Notes under the pieces: model-generated
Told to the model about the DNA's origin: nothing
The model's input: only the letters and a program-made list of their open reading frames with translations
Databases searched by the model: none
DNA from: Phorcus lineatus
Taxonomy: Eukaryota; Mollusca; Gastropoda; Trochida; Trochidae
Assembly (NCBI GenBank): GCA_921293015.1
Contig: OV121088.1
Span: 26,883,645 to 26,947,644, forward strand
Reading direction: 5' to 3'
DNA length: 64,000 bases
Part shown: positions 25,039-63,204 of the stretch, piece by piece
How the letters are laid out: the number at the start of each line of letters is the position of its first letter
Numbering within the stretch: position 1 is the stretch's first letter
Position numbers and translations under genes: made by a program

Positions 25039-25205
25039 ACTGCATTTCGTCTTGCAAAATAAACTTTTTAACGTTTCTGTTTCATAACTATATTTTATTT
25101 TATACATGTTTTGTGTTCATATGAAATACAGGGAGTAGTTTTCATGTCAAAAAAGTATTTTCAACGAATGCATTAACAAATCTTCTCGCGCACTATTTTC
25201 TGTGG

Positions 25206-25274
25206 ATTGGTACCCCAGCGTGAAACAACCGACATCCAATGAGAGCTGCGGGTTTGGTCATGTGATCGGAAGTG
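25206..25274 (+). promoter_or_regulatory. Putative TATA-less promoter of the MKP/DUSP gene
   Basis: Within 165 bp of the start codon are two CCAAT boxes (ATTGG 25206-25210; CCAAT 25236-25240), an MiT/TFE-type E-box TCATGTGA (25258-25265) and, abutting it, an ETS motif CGGAAGTG (25267-25274). No TATA box is seen at a suitable distance. The motifs are direct observations; promoter function and factor binding are inference. Confidence 0.45.
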
Positions 25275-25369
25275 ACTTGACCTATTTCATTCATAACTAC
25301 TATCATTCATGCTGTAGAGTCATTATCTCACAGTCATTGGCGACGAACACACAAAACTTACACAGCAAA

Positions 25370-25727
25370 ATGGAATCAGTTACTACGGATTACCTTGGCA
25401 AAAGACTACAGAGTCAAGATACTGATGGATTATTAATACTGGACACACGTCCATTCATGAGTTTCAACGAGATGCATGTGCAGGGGTCAGTTGACGTTCA
25501 TTTGCCGCCTATCGTAAAGCGACGCTCGGGCGGCTTCGTTGCGCTGGAAACTCTTATCAAGAAAGAAGAGGTGCGAAGCGCGCTCGTGGATGGACATTAC
25601 AAACTAGTGGTTGCATACGACCAGAACACAGAGGACCTACGTCTTGCCGAGAAGGATTCAAACTTGTACGTTGTTATGCAGAGTTTAAAACAACAGGTCG
25701 AGGGGGCGCGAGTTGTCTATCTAGCAG
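25370..25727 (+). CDS. MKP/DUSP exon 1: rhodanese-like domain with kinase-interaction motif
   Basis: Encodes residues 1-119 plus one base. 'LLILDTRPF' is the CH2A/rhodanese signature and 'DVHLPPIVKRRSGG' holds the docking cluster of basic residues. It ends in GCAG|GTACGT, a strong donor, in phase 1. Confidence 0.93.
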
Positions 25728-28700
25728 GTACGTGAATCTGTCCTTTCGCGTGTTGTCGTGATATCATGTGTGAACGCTATCTTATCTCGGCCATGACCTC
25801 ACAGGGCCTAAATTTTGTTGATGGTCGATTTATTTAATCATGGCTATGAATATTGAGATGCTTATGAATTTTCATCTTAAGTTGAGTTAGTTTAGGCTTT
25901 GGCTTTCAGTTGATAAAACTTCTGCTCAAATTGTTTTTGCTCTTACCGCGACATGTGCATAGTCCCAGCGTCTTATTTGTGTGACCTCGTAGGCATACAA
26001 CTATCTCGCTAATTCGTTTCATCTAGAGGCCTAGATTTTGCTTGAGGGTATGGATGACTAATATAGCTATATCTGCCTTGTTTTATTGTTTACAAGCTGG
26101 GAGAAAACAGACTTGTTATTGTTTTCTAGACTTTATAAAGGCTCCTTTGCGTCGAGTGAAAGTTGAATTCATTATCGAAGAAGTCAGTCTTCGGAAAAGG
26201 CTCATTTTCGATAATCGCATACTGAAAAGGATTGATTGTGGAAGGTTTTTTTTATTTGATTTGGTTTTATAATTAAACGCAATTTTTTTGGCAGGTGGTT
26301 TCGCTGGGTTTCAGTCTTCCTTCCCCGATCTGACCGTGTCTCCACCCTCCCACACCCTGTCGGTCGGTCAGCTGTCCCTCGCCCTTCCAACGGTCAACTC
26401 GGCTAATGTAAGTACAGTTTCGAGATTTTTCATATTTTTTGCAATACAAAGTCATACAACAGTACACCAGATGGTAGTTTACACAATAACAATATGCGCT
26501 TATAAGGGAGAAGAGTTATTGTTAAACTTTTCTCATAATAATATTTATGAATTGAGGTAATGATTATTGTACGTGAAGCTCTGTATGACTTCTTTCTCAT
26601 TATAAATTCGTTTAAGGTTTTACCAGCGCTATTTTGATTGAAACGCAATGGGTGGTTTTAATAAACTTGCATTGCAGTCTATTGTATACACACAAGCACT
26701 AGCATCTTTAAATATAAACAGTTACTTAGCGACTCTCAAGGTTCAATACCCACACAGAGTTAATGCCTGTTAAATATAGACAAGAAATAATCTTAGCCGT
26801 AGGGCGATGTTGTTTATACACACCTTGTAGTTAATTACAGGTGTTGTCTACCTGTGCATTCGGGTGAAACGACGAGCAGTAGCTGTTAGCTTTCTCACCT
26901 TTTCTCTTTTACTACATAATTAGAAATTCTCAGTCAAGCGTTTCTTACCTACTCTCTTTAACGTTTAAGAGGGTCTTATGGGTGTTGTGGCGCCCCTCCT
27001 GATCGTCTTTGAACCAACCATCCCCCTCCCCCCGGACCCTGAAGGCTCTCTTTGGTAGGGACTATCATCCCATTCAAACTAAGAGGTTTACAAATGCAAG
27101 ATTTCCATTGATGCGACACCCTTCCCTATATTCGAACGTATTCATTGGTTGGGAATATCTCACTCGAAGTCATCTTACTCTACTTTGGACCGGACTTTAA
27201 CCTGTAGACGACTCATTGAGGTGACTTCGTAACTGCTCTTTCCCCATCCTGTCGCAGGGGTTGGGGATCTCTCTAACCTGTCTCAAAAGTTGGAGGCGGA
27301 TCAACTTGAATTTATCTAACAGCGACTTGGGAACTCCCATCTTTCCCCATCCCACTTGCTTTGGTTGGGAATGTTAGGAAACGGAGAATCCTGTCTGGGA
27401 TCATCTAACTCGGACTTGTTCCCATCTCCTATTCTACCTTGGAGGCGGATTATCACTCAAGCGTCTCTCGTCTCTCACCTTCTGTTCGCTCTTCCACCTG
27501 GAGGGGCCCGCCTCATTAATCACATAACTTCCCCTCGACTTCAAACGCTGCCACCACGCGCTACATATCACTTCCGGTCGGGCGATGGTGGATACTGGAG
27601 TTGAAAGATTGCGGTATGTGCCTGTTTCCTCCATTAATTATGAGGGCATAGCCGACAGCAACAGACTGGGCCTGTCTGACGAGATAACGTGGAGAGGCTC
27701 CCATCTATCTATCTCTGTGGCGGGAAGATACGTTATTAATTACAGGGACAGCTTCCGTTGCCGTTAAGTATTTCCGGTAGCCGGTTTGTTTAAGTGGTCC
27801 CCTACTCTCTATACACGTGCAGATGTGCGTTCACGGTTCATGCACTACCCGCCCACGTGTTCCCCGCATACCGAAATCCCACGAACTATTCACTTTGTAC
27901 TTCTTTAACATCGTAGAAACTTAGCATAATGCTCCGTCTTAACTGCTTTAGCTACAAATAAACGTATTTGCTAGTACAGAGGACTTACTGTTAGTGCTGT
28001 ACGGACTAGTATAGGCCAACACTTAACCTGGATGTGAAAAGGCTTATCGGGCACTTATGACTGCCACAATCTGTTCCCACTAGATGTCTGGACGCTCGCC
28101 AGTTAGTTTAAGCGGAAATATAATTATCCCTCTCTCGTAAATAGCACATGTTGATTTCCAGACTCCGTGTTACGAAGAAGTATACATTAGTCAAGTCTAA
28201 TTAGTGACCATATGCTTACTAGTATGTTAGACTACTGATGTGGACAGTTTCATTTCTGTTGTAAATTCTAAGTAGGGTCTATGAACTCTATGAATAAAAT
28301 ATAACATGCCTTCTCGGTTCAATCTAACCAATTTAAGTTCTAGTTTCCAAAAGAATATAATTTTAAATCAGTTGATTACAGGTAGTTTTAATTAATTGTT
28401 CCTTCTAATTTAATCTATACACTTTCACGAAAAATGAAGGATCTCCAACCATTAACTTTCAAGAAGATCAGACTGAATACGTATAAACATTCAGTTCATT
28501 GACAGTAAGATATTTGTGGACGATTTATACCCTTTACTATTGACTTCATGATAGAATTTTGTGGAATTTAAATCTCCTAGGACTACACTCTCTACAAAAT
28601 TAATCAGTGATAATAATTAATATTTTGATTACTGGACCAACTACACGTTCTTGAAAAACGATTTTGACCATCGAGTATGGAGTTGCTAAAATCGAGATTA

Positions 28701-30383
28701 TAGTTTTATTGATTTCGTGGAATGTCATCTTCCCAAGTACACACCTCAATTTGTTAATTACGACACTTAAACGCTAGACAGCTGTAAGAAGATCTATATC
28801 CTCGTTCATATTTGATAAACCTTCCTCAATACACTCCCTCCCTCTATCAACCGCCGCCCACCCGTGAAAGGACGCGGAAATGTGCTGTATACTCATGTAG
28901 ACACATGTTTATTCAATTGTGAAAATAATTAAAACCTGAACCTAAATGAATCGTTTCCTTGTAAGGGAAATGTTTTGATAAGAAATCTTGATGAGATAAA
29001 ATGTCAATTATTTTGAAAAGTTGAATGACTTTTTTTATCATTCAGTCCACTGCAATCTTCGTACTCATTCAGCTTATTTACACAGACTTGCTTTGATTCT
29101 ATATAATTATTACCTACTTCATACATACGGTAATAATTGAACACAACGTTACAAAACATGCCTCTATAATTATTCAAAAATACACGGGTATGAAAATTAT
29201 ATATAAATACTAATTTCTAATTCATGAATATATAACTCATTGAATGTACTGACAGCCATAATTCAAATATCCCTAAACTTTTTTTTTTTTGAAAACTTGG
29301 TGTCAATTATCAATGCAGTTATCAAACTTAATATCATATTCACAGAAGGACCCAGTGGAGATCCTCCCCTTCCTTTATCTTGGGGACGCTGTCCACGCCA
29401 GCAAACGGGAGATGCTCCACCGCCTGTCTTTCACCGACATCTTGAACGTCTCAACTTCCTGCGACAACTCTTTTGACTCCGACTTCCGCTACATGAAGAT
29501 TGCAGTTCAAGACAATTCCACAACGGACTTACTGACATGGTTCCCCAAGGCTATAGCTTTTATAGGTGAGCTGAGATGACTGTTTGGAATATATAGATGC
29601 TGTCGCTGGGAATCCAAATCAAATAAAATATATCGGTTTTTTATTTGTTCACCTTTGTGAAATTACTGATTTGTCATAGCTCTATTTTCTATATCTGGAT
29701 GTCAAATGATGTATTTAATTCAAATTTAGGCCTTACCTTCTCCTTTAATATATGTAGGGTCCGAGATACTTGGGACATGTTTGAGGGTCATTTTATTATA
29801 TTAAATTTTGGCGAGTCAGGTTGATTGAATGTTTATACCAAACTAAATATATTTATATATTGTCTTGATGCCCACGATTTAATTACTAACAAGAAGGCCA
29901 TTACTCTAACCTTCTCATTGGGTATGAAGGGCGTTGGAAGAATGGAATAAGTCATGTGCTTAATGAGGTAGTGTGTCAAATATCATTTCACAAGCATTGA
30001 AAAAAACGAATATATTTTAATGTTTTGAATTTCCAGATAACGTGCGTAAGAATGGCGGGAAGGTCCTAGTTCACTGTCACGCCGGCATCAGTCGGTCTGC
30101 TACCATCTGTCTTGCCTACTTGATGTCAAAGAGAAACCTGTCCCTCGAGAACGCTTTCGACTACATCAGATTGAGACGCAACGTCATCAACCCCAACCTC
30201 AACTTCATGAGGCAGCTTAAAGACTTCGAGGACCAGCTCAGCGGCGGAAGAGTCCGCCGGGGTTCAGTCACCAATCACGAGTGCTCTCCCCTTACTCCTG
30301 GCGCTGGCGAGTGCGGTATCGCTTGGCATGGTTTCTCCTTCCCGGTGCCTACAAACTGCACCCCACTTGTCTCGCCAAGCTAA
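25370..30383 (+). CDS. MAP kinase phosphatase, dual-specificity (DUSP1/2/4/5-like), complete gene
   Basis: Four exons (25370-25727, 26295-26407, 29346-29565, 30037-30383) join in phase to 1038 nt, 345 aa plus TAA. Residues 1-155 form the rhodanese/CH2-like MAPK-docking domain with the basic motif IVKRR (48-52). Residues 160-305 form the phosphatase domain, with general acid Asp213 and the loop HCHAGISRS carrying nucleophile Cys244 and Arg250. The Asp-Cys spacing of 31 residues is that of DUSP1. Such enzymes remove phosphate from the Thr and Tyr of the ERK/JNK/p38 activation loop, often in the nucleus as feedback regulators. Length and four-exon layout fit the inducible DUSP1/2/4/5 group; the exact orthologue cannot be fixed by eye. 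The first ATG after the promoter motifs is in good context. An in-frame upstream extension to 25202 is possible but would start in the CCAAT region. Confidence 0.93.
25728..26294 (+). other. MKP/DUSP intron 1
   Basis: 567 bp, GTACGT...TTTTTTTGGCAG, phase 1. No element recognised inside. Confidence 0.9.
26295..26407 (+). CDS. MKP/DUSP exon 2: end of docking domain and linker
   Basis: Joins as ...VYLAGG|FAGFQSSFPDL..., the conserved end of the CH2 domain, then a Ser/Pro-rich linker to residue 157. The acceptor is TTTGGCAG and the donor AAT|GTAAGT. 113 nt, entering in phase 1 and leaving in phase 0. Confidence 0.92.
26408..29345 (+). other. MKP/DUSP intron 2
   Basis: 2.9 kb. The part from about 26.98 to 27.80 kb is clearly richer in G+C and C/T runs than the rest and contains partly repeated 'ttggaggcgga' motifs. 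The open frames there (27009-27767, both strands) show no domain. It could be an unclassified insertion. The remainder is AT-rich with nothing recognised. Confidence 0.75.
29346..29565 (+). CDS. MKP/DUSP exon 3: first half of catalytic domain
   Basis: Starts KDPVEILPFLYLGDA, the canonical opening of DUSP catalytic domains, and contains the general-acid loop AVQDNSTTD (Asp213). Acceptor TTCACAG, donor ATAG|GTGAGC, leaving in phase 1. Confidence 0.95.
29566..30036 (+). other. MKP/DUSP intron 3
   Basis: 471 bp, GTGAGC...TTTCCAG, AT-rich; nothing inside recognised. Confidence 0.9.
30037..30383 (+). CDS. MKP/DUSP exon 4: P-loop and C-terminus
   Basis: Encodes the active-site loop VHCHAGISRSATICLAYLM and the following helices ('FDYIRLRRNVINPNLNFM', a typical DUSP motif), then a 46-residue Ser/Pro-containing tail ending PLVSPS and TAA. 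Tails of this type in DUSP1 carry phosphorylation sites that set protein stability; whether this holds here is inference. Confidence 0.95.
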
Positions 30384-36420: not shown

Positions 36421-37830
36421 GATACGATCTTCATTAAAGAACAAAATTCATAATGTGACTGTTCCACATACGATCTTTATTGAAGAAGAAAATTTCATAA
36501 TGTGACTGTTCAACATACGATCTTTATTGAAGAAGAACATTTCATAATGTGACTGTCCTACATACGATCGTCATTGAAGAAACGACTTCATAATGTGACT
36601 GTTCAACATACGATCTTTATTGAAGAAGAACATTTCATAATGTGACTGTCCTACATACGGTCTTCATTGAAGAAACGACTTCATAATGTGACTGTTCAAC
36701 ATACGATCTTAAATAAAGAAAAAAAATCATAATGTGACTGTTCTACATACGATCTTTATTGAAGAAGAACATTTCATAATGTGACTGTCCTACATACGGT
36801 CTTCATTGAAGAAACGACTTCATAATGTGACTGTTCAACATACGATCTTAAATAAAGAAAACATTTCATAATGTGACTGTTCTACATACGATCTTCATTG
36901 AAGAAGAACATTTCATAATGTGACTGTCCTACATACGGTCTTCATTGAAGAAACGACTTCATAATGTGACTGTTCAACATACGATCTTAAATAAAGAAAA
37001 CATTTCATAATGTGACTGTTCTACATACGATCTTTATTGAAGAAGAACATTTCATAATGTGACTGTTCAACATACGATCTTTATTGAAGAAACGACTTCA
37101 TAATGTGACTATTCAACATACGATCTTAAATAAAGAAAACATTTCATAATGTGACTGTTCTACATACGGTCTTCATTGAAGAAGAACATTTCATAATGTG
37201 ACTGTTCAACATACGGTCTTCATTGAAGAAGAACATTTCATAATGTGACTGTTCAACATACGATCTTTATTGAAGAAGAACATTTCATAATGTGACTGTT
37301 CTACATACGATCTTTATTGAAGAAACGACTTCATAATGTGACTGTTCAACATACGATCTTAAATAAAGAAAACATTTCATAATGTGACTGTCCTACATAC
37401 GGTCTTCATTGAAGAAGAACATTTCATAATGTGACTGTTCAACATACGGTCTTCATTGAAGAAGAACATTTCATAATGTGACTGTTCAACATACGGTCTT
37501 CATTGAAGAAGAACATTTCATAATGTGACTGTTCAACATACGATCTTTATTGAAGAAGAACATTTCATAATGTGACTGTTCTACATACGATCTTTATTGA
37601 AGAAACGACTTCATAATGTGACTGTTCAACATACGATCTTAAATAAAGAAAACATTTCATAAAGTGACTGTTCTACATACGATCTTCATTGAAGAAACGA
37701 TTTCATAATGTGACTGTTTTACATACGATCTGAAATAAAGAAAATATTTCATAATGTGTCTCCTCTACATACGATCTTCAATGAAGAACAAGATTACATA
37801 ATGTGACTGTTCTAAATACGATCTTCAATA
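36421..37830. repeat. 46/47-bp satellite, about 30 units with higher-order A-B-C pattern
   Basis: Each unit has the core 'cataatgtgactgtt' + 'c.acatacgatctt' and then one of three linkers: A 'attgaagaagaacattt', B 'attgaagaaacgactt', C 'aaataaagaaaacattt'. From about 36.6 to 37.1 kb they cycle mainly A-B-C (about 139 bp); further right, runs of A interrupt the cycle. The terminal units are the most diverged, as expected for arrays homogenised by unequal exchange. Confidence 0.95.
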
Positions 37831-53465: not shown

Positions 53466-55008
53466 ATGGAGCCAATGGACACATCCGAACCTCAAGGTGC
53501 TAGATTCAAGGAACAAGGTAATTGTTACCAAGGTGTTACCCACATGCCAAACTCTTCTCACAATATGCAAACTGGGTCAGCACCAGTGTCTGCGCAAGGT
53601 TCACAACACCTTGGTCATCCAATCTGTAACTTCACACAGATGAATAATCAAGCTTTTCTTAATAGTGAAAACCAACAGATGCAGAATCCTCCTTATCCAT
53701 CAGGTCAAATCCAACAGATGCAGAATCCAGCCTATCCATCTGGTCCAAACCAACAGATGCAGAATCCAGCCTATCCATCAAGTCAAAATTCACAAATGCA
53801 GAATCAGGCTTTTCAAAATATTCAAAACTTCACACAGATGAATAATCAAGCTTTTCTTAATAGTGAAAACCCACAGATGCAGAATTCTTATCCTTCTGGT
53901 CCAAACCAACAGATGCAGAATTCCTATCCATCTGGTCCAAACCAACAGATGCAGATTTCAGCTTATCCATCTGGTCCAAATCAACAGATGCATAATCCGG
54001 CTTATCCATCTGGTCCAAACCAACATATGCAGATTCCAGCTTATCCATCTGGTCCAAACCAACAGATGCAGAATCCTCCTTATCAGTCTGGTCCAAACCA
54101 ACAGATGCAGATTCCAGCTTATCCATCTGGTCCAAACCAACAGATGCAGAATCCTCCTTATCAGTCTGGTCCAAACCAACAGATGAAGAATCCAGCTTAT
54201 CCATCTGGTCCAAACCAACAGATGCAGAATCCTCCTTATCAGTCTGGTCCAAACCAACAGGTGCAGAATCCAGGCTATCCATCTGGTCCAAACCAACAGA
54301 TGCAGAATCCAGCTGGTCCAAACCAACAGATGCAGAATCCAGCTGGTCCAAACCAACATATGCAGCATCCAGGCTATCCATCTGATCCAAACCAACAGAT
54401 GCAGAATCCAGGCTATCCATCTGGTCCAAACCAACAGATGCAGATTCCAGCTTGTCCATCTGGTCCAAACCAACACATGCAGAATCCAGGCTATCCATCA
54501 GGACCAAACCAACAGGTGCAGAATTCAGGCTATCCATCTGGTCCAAACCAACAGATGCAGAATCCAGCTGGTCCAAACCAACAGATGCAGAATCCAGCTG
54601 GTCCAAACCAACAGATGCAGAATCCAGGCTATCCATCTGGTCCAAACCAACACATTCAAAATCCAGCTTGTCCATCTGGTCCAAACCAACACATGCAGAA
54701 TCCAGGCTATCCATCAGGACCAAACCAACAGATGCAGAATCAAGATTTTGCCATTTGCAGAGTACCAGAACCACAAGGGCCTGCAGCATCCAGCAGGCAG
54801 ACACAGCACCCAGTTATCAACAGTGGTCAGACACAACCTTCAGGCAGTGAAAGTTACCAGTTGAGCAAACAAAATCAGTCTTCGGCAAGATCTGCAGAAC
54901 ACCAAGCATCATCAGACTCAAAAGAGGATGTTGATGCGTTGATTGAGAAGGTTAAAGCAGAGAATTTTGAAAAGGATCTGAGGGGGATAGGTAAACCTTC
55001 TACAACAG
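53466..55008 (+). CDS. PARP14-like coding exon A: low-complexity P/N/Q repeat N-terminus
   Basis: 514 codons plus one base. After MEPMDTSEPQ and a Gln/Asn-rich lead (with 'NFTQMNNQAFLNSEN' present twice) come 25 copies of PNQQMQNPAYPSG-type units. The end (about 485-508) turns charged: EDVDALIEKVKAENFEKDLRG. The donor is ACAG|GTGGGT at 55008; a second, equally in-phase donor ATAG|GTAAAC at 54990 would drop six residues. No structured domain is expected in the repeat. Confidence 0.85.
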
Positions 55009-58000
55009 GTGGGTTTATTATATTATTATGTTGAGTGTTATATAAGGTTTATTATTTGAGGTGACATTGCCATATACTATTGCATTCAAAGCTTTAAAAA
55101 AAATCTTATTACATGCAAGATAAATAATACAGATATGTCTTTAAATACTAGTGATAATCATTGCATGTCTTTCCTAGTTTATAACCCCCACCTGTGAATC
55201 AAAGTTGGTATATATCATGGTATCTTTCCTCTGTCAGTCAAGAAAATGGTTACCTGTCTTGCTTTTAATAATCACCAGCTCAAATTTCTTTGAAATGTAT
55301 AATCGCCAGGAAATATTAAATGATTTACTGTAGCCATTGACTATTGTTTTCCCCAACTTATTTTTCTGACATGTTTTGTAAATTACCCCAAAAAGATAAG
55401 TTCTAAGTCCTGAAGTTAGTGTTAAAATTGCTTTTTTAATCAGTCCAAGCATTCATAGCTGTTATATCTGATAGTACAGTGGCAGATCCAGGAATTTAGA
55501 AGGGGGGGTCACCTTTTTAAAAGGGCTTAGGGTTCACCCTCGTAGAGAAATTATATTTCAAATATTTGTAAAAAAAGTTATATAACCCATGCAATTTGTG
55601 GCATGCAACATCTTGTATACAACAAATTGCACTGTTGGACATGCCTTTAAGGCAAAAGTGAGGATGATATTATTGGTTTCGAATTTTGAATCATTAATAT
55701 ATCTCACTTGAACTAAAAATTGGATAATTATCATTTGGAATCTCAGGTTACTGCAAGAAGATGTTGAGTTGCCATGAGCTGCCAGTGGATCTGAATGAAG
55801 ACACTTTGAGCAACTATGTAGAAGTTTGTGGTGATTGTGAGGTGAAGAAATTGGAATTCTCTCTGGACCAAACAGCTGCTCTTGTGACTGTAGATAATGA
55901 GCCAGGTTTGTTGCATTTTATAAGGAAATTTGCGTTTTAATTCTAAGAGTAAACGACAAAAATTCAGTAACAGGTATATGAAGGGTGATACAATGATTTA
56001 AGGTGACCATTTCAAGCTAGGTAAATTATATTTAAATCTAATTTATATGAAAGCTTATCATATTGCAATTCCCCTCAATAACAATGTTTATTTTAGTTGT
56101 CATCTATGTTTTGAGTCAATATTTATCAAGGAACAATTTGTTTGTTATATAATGCACAACAGATTATTGCTACTTATTGCTACAAGAATATACATCTGAA
56201 TAACAACAGTAAAAATGAATGATTTAGCTGTTATAGAAGAAAGGGAGATTGGAAATGTTTCATTTAGCACTTAAGAAGGCAGTCGTAAAGCATTGGAGCA
56301 CTGATTAATAAGACTAAAATTACAGTACAGCTGCATATCAGTAAGGTGTTGTAACTTATATCTTAGCCATAAGTTACACTACAGCTTCATGTTAATGAGA
56401 TGGTGTAACTAAGATCTTAGTCATAAATTACACTACAGCTTCAATTTATGGACTGGTGTAATTAAAATCTTAGCCATGAATTACATTACAGCTTCATATG
56501 AATAAGATGGTGTAATTAAAATCTTAGCAATAGATTACTTTACAGCTGCACATCACTAAGATGAAATAGTTTAGACCCTAACCATTAATTTCAAAACAGC
56601 TGCATATTTCAAAGATATTGTCTAATTGAAATTTTATCTTAGCCAAATCTTTGTTTTCAAAGATGTTTACAATACATATTTAACTTTATCATGAAAACAA
56701 ACTCCCAAAGTTATAATTTAAGATGGTGCATATTTCCTCTCTAATATGTTCATCCGTACAGCAATTGGAAAATGCTCAGTGAAATTGCATCTGGGTTTTT
56801 TTTTGTCTGTTATCAAGCATATATGTCTTGTGGTTAACTAGTTTTTGTGATTAAACATATATGTCTTGTGGTTAACTAGTTTTTGTGATTAAGCATATAT
56901 GTCTTGTAGTAAACTAGTTTTTGTGATTAAGCATATATATGTCTTGTGGTTAACTAGTTTTTGTGATTAAGCATATATGTCTTGTAGTAAACTAGTTTTT
57001 GTAATTAAGCATATATGTCTTGTAGTAAACTAGTTTTTGTGATTAAGCATATATATCTTGTGGTAAACTAGTTTTTGTGATTAAGCATATATGTGTCTTG
57101 TGGTTAACTAGTTTTTGTGATTAAGCATATATGTCTTGTAGTAAACTAGTTTTTGTGATTAAGCATATATGTGTCTTGTGGTTAACTAGTTTTTGTGATT
57201 AAGCATATATGTCTTGTAGTAAACTAGTTTTTGTGATTAAGCATATATGTCTTGTGGTAAACTAGTTTTTGTGATAAAGCATATATATGTCTTGTGGTAA
57301 ACTAGTTTTTGTGATTAAGCATATATATGTCTTGTGGTTAACTAGTTTTTGTGATTCAGCATATATGTCTTGTAGTCAACTAGTTTTGTGATTAAGCATA
57401 TATGTCTTGTAGTAAACTAGTTTTTGTGATTAAGCATATATGTGTCTTGTGGTAAACTAGTTTTTGTGATTAAGCATATATGTCTTGTAGTAACTAGTTT
57501 TTGTGATTAAGCATATATTTGTCTTGTGGTAAACTAGTTTTTGTGATTAAGCATATATGTCTTGTGGTTAACTAGTTTTTGTGATTAAGCATATACGTCT
57601 CGTGGTTAACTAGTTTTTGTGATTAAGCATATACGTCTCGTGGTTAACTAGTTTTTGTGATCTGGCATGAAGTTGTTAATGTTTTCATATTGCAGACTGG
57701 GAAAAACTGACTAAGATGTCTAAAACAAGGCAACTGGAGAACAAAAAAATCAGATATGAACGTCTTTTGCCTTCAATCAGCATCTGTGTGTTGTTTGACC
57801 AGGCTGATGAGAGTAATATGCAGAAATTATATACTAACCTCACACCAAAACCTAAAGACACGTCTACTGTGAAGAGAGGCAAGGACATATTCCATGTGAT
57901 AACTTTTTCTTCTCCCAATGGTATGTATCATATTTCTACTTCTTCTTAAGAACTACTGGCTCCAGAAAGCTGAAATATTGTGTAAAGGTACATTAGCCAA

Positions 58001-61000
58001 TCAGAAGTATGATTGTAGGCACATACAAAGAGGTTGTACACCTGAACACTGATTTTTAACTCTTTCTTTTTGATAACATGAACACAGAAATGCCAAAATC
58101 TTGTTTACATTTACTTTGGTTAATTGAAATGATGAATCTTAACTTGCATGGCCACCTTTAACTTATGTTTGTTTTGTCAGGAGGACAAGTAACTTTTGCA
58201 GGTAGTGTATTGCAGATTTCGTCTCGCTTACTTTAAACAAATATTTTCTCTGGAAGAAAACCCTTTTGAAATATGTAATCTTGGCTTCAATTTCCTTGAC
58301 GTTTAGTTACCCTGAATTAAAGTCACAAGTGGTAGTAACTTCAATTTTTTCCGACATCTTCAAGTTCAAATTCTAGAGAGATTTTCTGTCGATGATTTTG
58401 ATTATTTTCTCATAACGTCAAATAGATTTAACTCTTTAACTCTATTCCAATGATAAATATTTCTGTAGTATAACATTGTAATAATTTCAGATGTTAAAGC
58501 TGTTCTGAGAAAGAAAGATCAATTGGCCAAGGAGTACAAGATGCTGATGTCAGTTTACTTTGAAAGCATTGGTCCTGTACAAGAAAAGTCTGAGTTGGTC
58601 GTTGAGGAAGAGGTTGAACTTACTGTTGGACAAAGTCGACTGCTTTTGACTACAAAGAAACTGGAAGAAATGAGGACATATGTAGACATTGAAATGAAGA
58701 ATGAAAGAATGATTGTGATGAGGGGCAAGCCAAAAGCCGTGTCACATGTGAAGGTAGTTATTCAAGACTTCAACAAACAGTTCAAAGAAAGGAAAGTTGA
58801 ATGTTCCATGGCAAAGCAAAAATACATAATGGATGAAACCTGTGGACAACTCATGCATTTGAGAATGAGAGGGAAAAATATTGAGGGTACTTGGTACGAG
58901 TCCCGCAGACAGCTGATGATCTGTGCAACTTCAGATGCAGACTTGGATCACATTGCAAATTGGATTGACAGACATTTGAAAGAGAAAATTTTTGATTCAA
59001 CAACTGAAGAGTTCAAACAAGCCTTGAAAGCAATGGAACATATGAAAAATGGCTCATACCTGCTAGACTATGGTAACTATCATCATGAACTGGTTCTCGT
59101 GGCCGAGCGTGAAGAATTTCAAGAAGCTTGTCAAATTGTTGATGGTATCCTTGCTCAGAGAAGAGATGAGGAAGAAATGATGAAGAGAAAACAGAAAGAG
59201 AGATCAAGGACATCATTCCAAGAATCCATCAAGGAAACAATACCTAAAGATCACAAGCTTTTCCTTCAAAGGTTTAAACAAAAAGACTTGAAGGCACTTG
59301 AAACAAAATTTAACATCAGCATATTCCTTGAAGGACCAGACAATGAAGTCATTATTTCTGGACAAGTTAACAAAGAGGCTCTTGAAAGTTTCAAGGCTAT
59401 TGTTAGAGATTTGAAGATGGCTATCCTAGCCTTGTCACCAGAAAGCTCAACCCAAATTTTGAGTTCAGGATTTCTAGGATGTTTAGAGAAATATGTTGGT
59501 GACACAGAGAGGTGTGTCATTAGTCATAAGATTCAACCATTAGCCAATGAGAGCGGAGACGAGTCCCTTGGGGGTGCTGTGGGAGGAGCTACATTGGTTC
59601 ACAGTTCTGGACACAGTTCTGGACACACCTCTGGACATGGTTACAGCAACTGCAGAGAAAGGGGAAAAGGAAGCAGCTCACCTGAACCCAAAATACCAAA
59701 ACGTGTTGATAGAAACAAAAGAAGTGAGTTAGTATAACTATCATATACAAAAGAGTGTTATTGGCTAATTAATCATCTAATAAGCTTGTCGACGACTCAA
59801 ATACTAACAGACATAAAATATATCATTTCTGTAAAGGTGGGCTATTGGATTTTGATGTTGGTTCTGACATTTTGCGTCTAGGTAAAATACTTATAAGAAA
59901 CAACTAATTTTAAGTTTCAGATTTCATATTCATAATTAACATGCCTTTTTTCATTTTTTAAAAAAGAAGTGCTTGAAAGTTTTGAAATCTGAACGATTTA
60001 CTTGTAATCTCTGTCAAATCAGTTTTGAATTGAATAAATTTAAAAAAGTAAACACCATCTTTGGTGTTACTCAAAAAAAGGATTTTCAATTTGCATTTAA
60101 AATATTGATTTACCTGTGGTAAAAAAATTAACATTTGCACATGTTTTTGAAACAGGATAAATGATTTTAAAAAATATTTTCAATATTCTAGCATTTCAGA
60201 GGCAAATACAGTTCATTGTCAATGAAGGAGAAATTGCAAAGGAAAAGGTTAGACCAGTTTTTATTTACTTTTGTCAGTGAATGCTTATAAATAATTTATG
60301 ATATTTTTAAGATGCAGTGAAAGCTTTTAAAACAATATTTTTTATTTGTGAATCATTCTGTATTGAAAATTAAGTGTGCCATAATTATATATGATGTCTG
60401 CATGAGCCATCAATCGTGAACATCCCGCTTATTGTATCAATATTATCTCTTGTATGAAGTAAGGGATCATAGTGGACAAAATAGGAGCAGAAGGGTGATA
60501 GGAGAAAATGTCTCTTAACACAGTAGATGTATTCATTAATTTATCTCTTATTAAGATATCTACTTTGGGCTGTGTTACTCTAGTTAAATCTTAAATGTTG
60601 AAAAAAATAACGTATTTAATTTTTTATAAATATTAGGATGTTAAAAAAAATATGATGCTCCATTAATCAGTTTATTTTTTCCCTAAGATTTAAAATTCAT
60701 TGAGTAATTAAAAAAGACAACTCAAAATCAGGATACTCGCACAAATGATACATCTTAAAATGTACCTAAAACCTACCTAATGTAAAAAAAATGTCCACTT
60801 TTTTAAAACTAAAATATGAGCTTTTAGTTAATTTTTAGCTCATCAGACCTAAAAGATCAAATTGGCTTTTTGCATGGTTTGATGTCCGCTGTTCATTTGG
60901 GACTGCCATAACAATAAGACTGCACCAGGCTCACAGTAACTTGGGAGAAATTGATTGAAACCTAATTGTTGCTTTTTCTCTGAGTATTTGCTTGATGTTA

Positions 61001-63204
61001 TTTGCGAAGGGTGGACAACAAAGGGGCTAGTTAAAAGATGGATGTTGGTGACGCATTGTTCAGATGTAAAGCATGTTTTAATGGCTTTTTTTAATGTCCT
61101 TACTTTTTACAGAGAATATTTCCACTAGTTAGAAGAGAGCAAATATAAAAGAGTGTGTAAATGAATCCAAATAGAGTTACTCCCTAACTGTTATTTGAAA
61201 AAAATAAATCTGATTTTGTTCAGTGGAATAGGTGACAATATGTCAGCTCCATACATCTGTATGAAAGTCCGTCCGGTTCTGGTTAACATTAAATCTCATG
61301 AACCACTGCACTTGGAGTCTTTAAACTTGGTCTTCATATTAGAAATATGCAGTTACCAGCTGTTAACACGTTATTTTTAACCTCTATACCCAGAGTCTTC
61401 TAATTGAGGGTATCAGACTTCAATAGAGGAGTACCCAGACAATTCTGGTGTAAACTATAATGTATGAATGAAAAAAGGTACCCAAAACAATGTTACCTTT
61501 TGTTAAAAAGATGACGAAAATGATCGTAAATCATGGGTTAGTTATGTCAAAAACATGATTTGTACATATGGTTTCAGTTATGCATGGGAGTTTCAAAATA
61601 TTAGCAACAGTGATACATTTGTAAATCAATTCGCCCAGAGGGTTAAAGACTGTAACACTCAAAATGTTCTTTCTCTATTACATGAACATTCAAATTTAGA
61701 TTTCTACTCATCTGTGAAAACATCATTTAAAATGGAATCGTATTTGTTAACTGTTCGAAATAAAGATATACGAAGATTTCTAACACTTTTATGAATAGGT
61801 GAATTGAAAATAATGAAAAATACCAGAAGAAGAAATGATATCCCCAGAGAATTAAGATTTTGCCCTGTTGCAAAATTGTTTTGGAAGATGAATTGCATTT
61901 TATGTTTTTATGTCCATTATATAATGAATTAAGAATTAAATATATGCTCAATTTTGAATGCAAAATTAATACAACTCTTAACTTCTCTTTTGCAAACTGG
62001 AAATGATAATCAAGCATATTTGTGTGCAAAGTATGTCAGAGAAGCTTTTTTGTTACGATGTTTTCTACTTTAATTCAATACATAATATTTCTAAAGCCTG
62101 GATATATGTTACGTTTCATTTGTTAACACAAAATCCTGTACGTTAATAAAATTTGTCTTTTAAATTTTGTCAACGGACAGGATTTGGCACCATTCAATTT
62201 GAGTCACTACAATACTTTGACTAGTTTTTGCAATGTTTAAATTGTATCTATTTGGTTGTTTTTGTTTCCTTGTTTGATACAAAAATATATTTAACAGCTT
62301 TTATTTGTTTTAAGATATCTTGTCTAATGCCCTGAGGCTGTCAATGAACAATTTTGATGATGTATTTCACTTGGAGAACTAATAGGAATGAATCTTAGTA
62401 TTGAACATCAACAATGCAAAGGCTGACGAGCTACAGAGTCATGGCTCTGCTTTTCCTTGTAGAGTGACATCATAGTCAACACAGTGTCCAAAGGCTTTGA
62501 CTTGAAGGCAGGAGCAATTTCTAAGTCTTTGCTAGCTGCAGGAGGATGGAAGTTTGAAAAGGAATTCAAAGAAAAAGAATACAAACTACATGAGGGAGGG
62601 TTTGTGGTGACAGATGGGGGGAATCTGAAATGTAAACACGTCTTTCACTGCTGCCTTTGCCCTTCAAAATTAGTCCATGCAGGAGAGGTATAAGTTTTTG
62701 TTTGTGTAAATCCAAAGATATGGTTTTAATGGTTTATTAAGTAACTTGTATGATATCATTTATTGTTCATTGAGTACCAAGTGTAATTTTCAAATCACAG
62801 ATCGTGTATAATATTGTTTTCATAAGTGTGGGTAATGTTTTCCTCCTGTCAAACCCTGGCCTAAACTAAACTCCTCTAATCAGATTATCCTTCTACATAT
62901 AAGGTTCTCGTGTACTTCATCATGTGATAAACTTTGTTTAAGAAATCATGTCATGATTCCATTTGCTTTGATACCTGACTTTTTTCCCCAGTCCTTTCAA
63001 AATGTCATGTCTGAAATGCTGGAGCATGCTGATAGTCTGAATATGAAGACAGTATCTCTTCCTGCCCTGGGTACCGGTTTACTTGGATACGCACCTGAGA
63101 GCTCTGCAAACATCATGTTCAGCGCTGTGATGGAGTATGCTAAAGAAAATAAAAACATCGAAGAAGTGCGAGTTGTGATTTACAAAAGCGAGAAAGCTTT
63201 GAAG
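53466..63204 (+). CDS. PARP14-like macrodomain protein, 5' part (gene runs off the right edge)
   Basis: Seven exons (53466-55008, 55747-55905, 57696-57920, 58491-59723, 60192-60247, 62463-62687, 62992-63204) join in phase to 1218 codons without a stop. Order: 25-unit P/N/Q/Y repeat (68-425), linker, two RRM-like folds (about 519-590 and 594-672), three or four KH-like repeats (about 683-950), a basic Gly/His/Ser linker, and a macrodomain (about 1056-1218). RRM-KH-macro is the architecture of PARP14, a mono-ADP-ribosyltransferase acting in antiviral and DNA-damage responses. Further macrodomains, WWE and the catalytic domain should lie beyond 64 kb; without them it could also be a PARP9-like or enzyme-free relative. 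ATG 53466 has a strong context (AAGATGG). The N-terminal repeat is not known to me from vertebrate PARP14. Confidence 0.85.
53667..54743 (+). repeat. Coding minisatellite, 39-bp unit with 30-bp variants
   Basis: Units of 13 codons (YPSGPNQQMQNPA) and shorter 10-codon forms (GPNQQMQNPA, in adjacent pairs at about 54300 and 54560). All are multiples of three, so frame is kept. Larger blocks also repeat: NPAG-NPAG-PGY occurs twice, implying segment duplication. Frames on the other strand across the array (53857-54804 and others) are by-products of a 39-bp periodicity. Confidence 0.95.
55009..55746 (+). other. PARP14-like intron A
   Basis: 738 bp, acceptor ATCTCAG. Contains a hAT-type terminus at 55477. 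Nothing else recognised. Confidence 0.8.
55477..55505 (+). mobile_element. hAT-type terminal repeat fragment
   Basis: CAGTGGCAGATCCAGG + AATTTAGAAGGGG is close to the common hAT end CAGTGGCGGATCCAG. The opposite end is not found nearby, so it is a solo or decayed copy. Confidence 0.5.
55747..55905 (+). CDS. PARP14-like coding exon B: RRM-like 1, first half
   Basis: Phase 1 in and out, 159 nt. YCKKMLSCHELPVDLNEDTL reads as beta1 and helix1, then VKKLEFSLDQTAALVTVDN as beta2-beta3. Acceptor ATCTCAG, donor CCAG|GTTTGT. Confidence 0.8.
56321..56646. repeat. About 54-bp tandem repeat, six diverged copies
   Basis: Motif 'ttacactacagcttcat' + 'aagatggtgtaattaaaatc' + 'ttagccataa' recurs six times with decreasing similarity to the right. 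Confidence 0.88.
56817..57662. repeat. 38-41-bp minisatellite, about 22 copies
   Basis: Unit 'gcatatatgtcttgtggtta' + 'actagtttttgtgattaa'. Variation is concentrated in AT/ATGT length and in TAGTAAAC versus TGGTTAAC. Copies are highly alike, so the array is recent. It ends 33 bp before exon C, close to the branch-point region. Confidence 0.95.
57696..57920 (+). CDS. PARP14-like coding exon C: end of RRM-like 1, start of RRM-like 2
   Basis: 75 codons, phase 1 in and out. DWEKLTKMSKTRQLENKKI completes helix2 of the first fold. SISICVLFDQADESNMQKLY opens the second, ending KDIFHVITFSSPN (beta3, aromatic as in RNP1). Donor AATG|GTATGT. Confidence 0.85.
57921..58490 (+). other. PARP14-like intron C
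   Basis: 570 bp, GTATGT...AATTTCAG; nothing inside recognised. Confidence 0.85.
58491..59723 (+). CDS. PARP14-like coding exon D: end of RRM-like 2 and KH-like repeats
   Basis: 411 codons, phase 1 in and out. VKAVLRKKDQLAKEYKMLMS closes RRM 2. Then KH-like units: TYVDIEMKNERMIVMRGKPK (about 703-722), a second around QLMICATSDADLDHIANWI, a third around HHELVLVAEREEFQEACQIV, and FNISIFLEGPDNEVIISGQV as the clearest. A Lys/Glu-rich helix (RRDEEEMMKRKQKERSR) interrupts them. The C-terminal part has Ser-Gly-His repeats and a basic stretch KIPKRVDRNKR, a possible nuclear signal. Donor AGAA|GTGAGT. Confidence 0.85.
59724..60191 (+). other. PARP14-like intron D
   Basis: 468 bp, GTGAGT...TATTCTAG. 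AT-rich; nothing inside recognised. Confidence 0.75.
60192..60247 (+). CDS. PARP14-like coding exon E: macrodomain first strand
   Basis: Only 56 nt. Read through the phase-1 junction it gives TFQRQIQFIVNEGEIAKEK, the usual beta1 plus 'v..GdI....' opening of a macrodomain. It leaves in phase 0 at AAAAG|GTTAGA. The nearer acceptor at 60199 would hit a stop, so 60191 is preferred. Confidence 0.72.
60248..62462 (+). other. PARP14-like intron E
   Basis: 2.2 kb, ending ttttccttgtag. Holds a LINE relic at 61.56-62.10 kb. Confidence 0.75.
61555..62100 (+). mobile_element. LINE reverse-transcriptase C-terminal relic
   Basis: Frame 1 gives TFVNQFAQRVKDCNTQ...SFKMESYLLTVRNKDIRRFL. After a stop and a frameshift it continues IPRELRFCPCCKIVLEDELH + FMFLCPLYNELRIKYM. 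The 'IP...R.C..C....EDE.HF...CP.Y..LR' block is the standard tail of many LINE polymerases. Stops and frameshift make it non-functional. Same orientation as the host gene. Confidence 0.8.
62463..62687 (+). CDS. PARP14-like coding exon F: macrodomain core
   Basis: 75 codons, phase 0-0. SDIIVNTVSKGFDLKAGAIS replaces the usual 'DvIVNAAN..l..ggGva' loop. SKSLLAAGG and FVVTDGGNLKCKHVFHCC are typical macrodomain strands. The usual Asn of NAAN is absent (NTVS), which argues against strong hydrolase activity. Donor GAGAG|GTATAA. Confidence 0.9.
62688..62991 (+). other. PARP14-like intron F
   Basis: 304 bp with a strong pyrimidine tract (cttttttcccccag type) before exon G. Confidence 0.88.
62992..63204 (+). 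CDS. PARP14-like coding exon G: macrodomain C-terminal half
   Basis: 71 codons, phase 0-0. SLPALGTGLLGYAPESSANI is the diphosphate-binding glycine loop, nearly canonical, followed by the helix IMFSAVMEYAKEN and the last strand VRVVIYKSE. Donor AAG|GTTTGT. Read-through would add only VCL and a stop, so a short form ending here is conceivable. Confidence 0.92.

Follow-up and report, generated by a model that had tools for sequence, protein, structure and literature searches.

The window, a 64,000-nucleotide stretch of contig C13 from a 958-Mb genome, carries a predicted PARP14-like gene whose first coding exon most likely encodes a disordered tail of low complexity, nearly uncharged and with regularly spaced aromatic residues. 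Several sister genes of this genome begin with low-complexity stretches of a different sequence at the corresponding position, pointing to a sticky tail that is kept by composition and not by sequence. We propose that such a tail on a PARP14-like macroPARP would give a condensed scaffold of ADP-ribose and RNA, with the composition of the tail under selection, and we regard this proposal as evenly poised between right and wrong.

A regular repeat in the first coding exon

The first coding exon, exon A, and its parts are as follows.

53466..55008, plus strand: exon A, comprising the ATG, a 68-residue leader (MEPMDTSE...), the repeat array and a tail
53670..54761, plus strand: P/N/Q/Y repeat array of 28 units, consensus NQQMQNPAYPSGP, 364 residues
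54762..55008, plus strand: non-repeat tail of exon A, its last part homologous to the first exon found in the closest paralog, P2 (56% over 64 residues)

The ATG has a good Kozak context, as judged by eye, with a splice acceptor upstream, and the exon closes on a phase 1 donor (CAACAG/GTGGGT, the slash marking the exon end) that is preceded, 18 bases earlier, by a second phase 1 donor, GGATAG/GTAAAC. A sequence-only reading of this DNA had described about 360 repeat residues in one exon, almost free of charge, and both points are borne out: the array spans 364 residues inside open exon A and 5 of these are charged. Its count of 25 units was slightly low, as 28 are recognized by motif (13 residues in 21 units, the last of which has diverged, 12 in two, 10 in four and 27 in one); TRF reports 28.5 copies of 39 bp with a score of 1188. 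Gln, Pro and Asn make up 23.6%, 19.2% and 15.1% of the array, and 24 of its residues are aromatic. The same reading had placed Tyr or Phe about every 13 residues, which agrees with a median aromatic spacing of 13 in exon A, but Tyr does not occur in every unit, the segment that carries it being absent from four units and Cys being found in two.

Because the 39-bp consensus, whose length is a multiple of three, is free of stops in five of the six frames, the open frame alone is weak coding evidence. Translation of exon A is instead supported by an excess of synonymous differences among the units (10 of 28 distinct changes versus 5.4 expected, p ~0.017, over 26 aligned units) and by the match of the tail to P2 at the protein level.

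Prion-like domains are recognized by at least 30 Q + N in 80 residues. Exon A reaches this threshold, with up to 37 Q + N per 80 residues and at least 30 in 214 of 435 windows, in keeping with the prion-like composition claimed for it; its PAPA-style score is only 0.058. FUS-type prion-like domains are low in charge, rich in Q/N/S/G, carry spaced Tyr residues and adjoin RNA-binding modules. The tail resembles these domains in its low charge, its spaced Tyr and its neighbouring RNA-binding modules, and is set apart by its 19% proline and its 13-residue unit; we claim no homology with them.

The consensus for ligands of PTB domains is hydrophobic-x-N-P-x-Tyr, and the repeat could thus be a multivalent docking platform for PTB-domain adaptors, possibly on Tyr phosphorylation, rather than a condensation tail. 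Exon A has 13 matches to [MIVLF]xNPxY, spread over 13 of its 28 mostly 13-residue units, against a maximum of 2 in 2000 composition shuffles, although the shuffle ignores the copying of units and the count may reflect a single motif that was amplified. The motif is absent from the other 15 units and has no match in six other low-complexity exons, and we consider docking quite improbable. A low-complexity condensation tail is the reading that we prefer.

A search of exon A against its own genome returned 14 matches, among which the only specific non-self match was the first exon of P2, and this in the tail only; the remaining matches were weak, low in complexity and 17-34% identical. The letters of the repeat thus look unique within this genome. 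Tandem arrays as such are common in the window, with 45 TRF rows that include a 22-copy array of 38 bp at 56808-57661, within the B-C intron, and ~30 copies of a 46-47 bp repeat at 36422-37827.

Domain architecture of the PARP14-like gene

Exon A can be joined with matching phases to six further exons, the introns being of phases 1, 1, 1, 1, 0 and 0.

55747..55905, plus strand: exon B, first part of the RRM (RRM_PARP14_3), 98% identical to P2
57696..57920, plus strand: exon C, remainder of the RRM region
58491..59723, plus strand: exon D, KH-like region (KH under the Pfam threshold) and a Gly/Ser/His tail
60192..60247, plus strand: exon E, start of macrodomain 1, within the PDB alignment and outside the Pfam stretch
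62463..62687, plus strand: exon F, macrodomain 1
62992..63204, plus strand: exon G, end of macrodomain 1 with a GTGLLGY loop, donor GAAG/GTTTGT

The Pfam match to RRM_PARP14_3 (E 3.8e-7, over the curated cut-off) spans the B/C junction and that to macrodomain 1 (2.9e-15) crosses the F/G junction, while the PDB alignment to PARP14 macrodomains runs across exons E, F and G. The predicted splicing of the repeat to RRM, KH and macrodomain exons thus holds for its phases, its RRM and its macrodomain, but the KH part stays below threshold, KH_1 and KH_PARP14_8 both scoring under the cut-off in exon D (best E 0.022). The AlphaFold model of exon D has a mean pLDDT of 42, from two alignment rows only.

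The gene extends past the window in the same orientation, at ~C13:26952378-26971049, with a second macrodomain (1.8e-16, on a sequence hand-joined from open frames), a third present only as degenerate pieces that are common to P2 (best E 0.15), a WWE domain (4.7e-10) and, behind it, an ART domain. The ART scored 5.5e-10 with Pfam PARP when its three exons were hand-joined, and unjoined the last exon alone scored, at 0.0032; its closest PDB matches are PARP15 (1.1e-16) and then PARP14. This set of an RRM, macrodomains, a WWE and a PARP14/15-type ART supports a PARP14-like macroPARP architecture, as the sequence-only reading had proposed. Upstream of the gene in the window lies a MAP-kinase-phosphatase-like gene, with Rhodanese and dual-specificity phosphatase exons at 25139-25735, 29277-29579 and 30021-30383 on the plus strand.

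Active mono-ADP-ribosyltransferases carry a catalytic His (HGT) and a Tyr (YGKG) of the H-Y-hydrophobic motif. In alignment with PARP15, both residues are replaced in the ART of the window gene (HGT by KCD and YGKG by LGEG); transferase activity is therefore unlikely and the domain looks catalytically dead. Hydrolase activity of macrodomains of the MD1 type is linked, in an excerpt of PMC10221186, to a hydrophobic plus an aromatic residue in loop 2. With the loop placed by eye, it reads GTG-L-L in macrodomain 1 and GTG-N-L in macrodomain 2, so that neither intact macrodomain has the aromatic residue named in that excerpt. Since the catalytic His and Tyr of the ART are replaced, the protein is probably a reader or scaffold of ADP-ribose rather than a writer, which narrows the ADP-ribosylation scaffold first suggested for it.

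Comparison with the closest paralog

P2 lies on the minus strand, from C13:26809025 down to 26786748, and has counterparts of exons B-G in the same order, with identities of 98, 77, 82, 68, 76 and 75% (tblastn pieces; exon D reached 84% in the genome search), as well as an exon homologous to the exon A tail. No repeat was found at this counterpart of the tail. A low-complexity stretch on the strand of P2, 34 kb 5' of it, is a low-Q repeat that other coding pieces separate from P2. A search of the 22 kb behind the P2 exons did not find macrodomain 2.

Over exons B, C, D, F and G the two genes differ with a dS of 0.138 and a dN/dS of 0.61, a value that fits fast evolution and relaxed constraint equally well; for the A-tail, dN/dS is 1.41. 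By this comparison, the repeat is either a gain of the window gene or a loss of P2. Because P2 is without the tail and its exons are nonetheless open, the tail appears dispensable for some family members.

Low-complexity first exons in sister genes

RRM_PARP14_3 has 35 matches in the genome at E up to 0.1, 34 of them over the cut-off; these count exons and not genes, and the exon of the window gene itself is not among them. At least 26 fall in clusters on C13 and C9, and one macrodomain exon has 32 genome matches, all on the same two contigs. By these counts, PARP14-like genes are expanded in this genome.

Next to the window gene, the downstream neighbour has a 414-residue open frame rich in Q/S/P (C13:26985199-26986440) ~0.6 kb before its RRM exon. 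At eight further loci we examined the stretches 5' of RRM_PARP14_3 exons that we took to be the first in their gene, and scored as a low-complexity exon 100 residues with at least 65% QNPSGYHT and at least 25% Q + P. Five of the eight (C13:47.70M, 15.80M, 11.75M and 11.688M; C9:8.39M) carry a long exon rich in Q/P/Y ahead of the RRM, the RRM at C9:8.39M being RRM-like by eye and ~1 kb further on. No such exon was seen in the stretch examined at C13:47.758M, C9:8.44M and C12:45.38M; the frames at the latter two are RRM-like by eye and the first exon may lie further out.

As controls we used non-overlapping 2.7-kb windows from the surrounding 262 kb, on both strands and with two family exons left out, and 1 of 187 fitted the criterion (2 of 371 when half-overlapping). 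With at least 10 Q also required, a minimum added after the looser criterion had caught the low-Q repeat (three overlapping frames) 34 kb 5' of P2, the counts were 0 of 187 and 0 of 371. Other macro/PARP loci gave no fit in 22 windows. Fisher tests of the five in eight loci against the controls gave p values of 1.5e-7 (looser criterion) and 2.5e-8 (stricter), a contrast that is somewhat overstated because the controls are anonymous windows and not first exons of genes.

Including those of the window gene and its neighbour, the seven low-complexity exons are all compatible with a phase 1 intron behind them. A script listed a phase 1 donor near the exon end in five (window gene, neighbour, 15.80M, 11.75M and 11.688M), some of which also show donors of other phases; in the other two the donor was identified by eye (GC at 47.70M, GTTATA at C9:8.39M). 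On the acceptor side, the most convincing AG of the following RRM exon, picked among several, is phase 1 in all seven. Blastp among the seven exons gave nothing below E 1, which rules out a claim of sequence homology among them; what we claim is position, phase and composition. At least 30 Q + N per 80 residues, the prion-like threshold, is reached in only two of the seven.

The idea of a tail peculiar to the window gene is thus overturned by the low-complexity exons 5' of other RRM_PARP14_3 exons: the feature recurs in sisters with a different sequence, and the closest paralog is without the repeat. Two of the sister exons, at C13:11.75M and C13:11.688M, show repeats of their own by eye, the latter (minus strand) a coding tandem repeat of ~23 residues, GQGMKYQHGPGNHPQLGQDHPQY. 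The first exon at C13:11.75M (minus strand) starts MADNMDTSE, close to the MEPMDTSE of the window gene; the MDTSE common to these two exons hints at a shared origin.

The array might alternatively be a coding minisatellite that evolves neutrally and is tolerated because it lies in a disordered leader, its length and sequence having no function. This would suit its absence from P2, the A-tail dN/dS of 1.41 and the frequency of tandem arrays in the window (45 TRF rows, including the 38-bp array before exon C), but the synonymous excess among units (10 versus 5.4 expected), the low charge kept through 364 residues and the similar composition of the same exon in sisters (5 of 8 loci versus 1 of 187 windows) argue against it, and we consider it unlikely. 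We favour a tail whose composition is under selection.

Exon A as part of the gene

No domain bridges the A/B junction, and exon A is assigned to the gene because of its synteny with P2 and its matching phase. It could otherwise form a gene of its own or serve as an alternative first exon, with most transcripts starting 3' of it. A swap of first exons is conceivable in this family, as 5' of the first P2 exon and on the same, minus strand there is a coding-looking exon ending in a donor, which we take to be TRIM-like and which makes a fusion or swap possible. A separate exon A is nevertheless highly improbable given that P2 has its A-tail and RRM exons in the same order and that all seven low-complexity exons precede an RRM or RRM-like exon from which a compatible phase 1 intron would separate them. 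These observations support a single gene that joins exon A to the RRM, KH-region and macrodomain exons, in agreement with the original proposal of one gene and not two.

A proposed ADP-ribose reader with a condensation tail

In the mechanism that we propose, the tail would provide weak multivalent contacts through Tyr/Phe and Q/N by which the protein is concentrated in condensates. RNA would be brought by the RRM/KH part, while macrodomains 1 and 2 would read ADP-ribose deposited by active PARP14-type sisters, and the protein would serve innate defence as a scaffold for ADP-ribose/RNA bodies. The composition of the tail would be under selection while its units turn over, as has been proposed for the glutamine-rich repeat of Argonaute-2. 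Condensation by the tail is here an inference, and several points count against the mechanism: the 19% proline, which disfavours amyloid, the low PAPA-style score and the small share of sister exons that reach the prion-like threshold.

In vertebrates, PARP14 forms ADP-ribose condensates together with p62. It is required for such condensates when they are induced by interferon, and its catalytic activity is also needed, according to an excerpt of PMC12084362. Because the ART of the window gene is probably inactive, sister genes would have to supply this activity. The family may be an expanded PARP14-like immune set with a condensation tail that turns over fast, is conserved in composition and is independent of the Argonaute-2 repeat, the window gene being a reader scaffold without writer or eraser function that is paired with a tail-less sister; this wider reading we offer tentatively and hold to be somewhat doubtful.

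If sisters carry built-in prion-like tails, selection could act directly on condensation of the PARP14 immune system, and a single genome would offer a natural series, from a tail with a long regular repeat through several irregular ones to a close paralog with none. Beside Argonaute-2, this would be a second RNA-linked immune protein that keeps the composition of its tail and loses the sequence. A tail of this kind in PARP14 of any species is not mentioned in the titles and abstract openings of the literature matches listed; disordered regions have already been described in PARP7 and PARP13 (excerpt of PMC10450202).

Relation to known systems

The domain order of the window gene is like that of vertebrate PARP14 (RRM, KH, macrodomains 1-3, WWE, ART), which is also the best PDB match of its macrodomains, whereas its ART matches PARP15 before PARP14. 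It differs in its ART without the His and Tyr, its macrodomains without the hydrolase loop and its tail; excerpts of PMC10450202 and PMC13224862 place the RRM of human PARP14 at the N-terminus and do not mention a repeat tail. PARP14 homologs have already been reported in molluscs (excerpt of PMC10221186).

Insect Argonaute-2 likewise has N-terminal tandem repeats before an RNA-binding immune protein. The composition of its glutamine-rich repeat is conserved and the unit sequence is not (PMC4978909, in part), and its disordered region phase-separates (PMC12276012, in part). However, the Argonaute-2 tail is basic and acts through charge with RNA, while the window tail is almost uncharged with regular Tyr, and the two families are unrelated.

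PARP9 and PARP13 are members of the immune family whose ART, like that of the window gene, is without the canonical catalytic residues (excerpt of PMC10221186). PARP9 has two KH domains together with two macrodomains, and reports of it are confined to jawed vertebrates, whereas the window gene has RRM and WWE parts.
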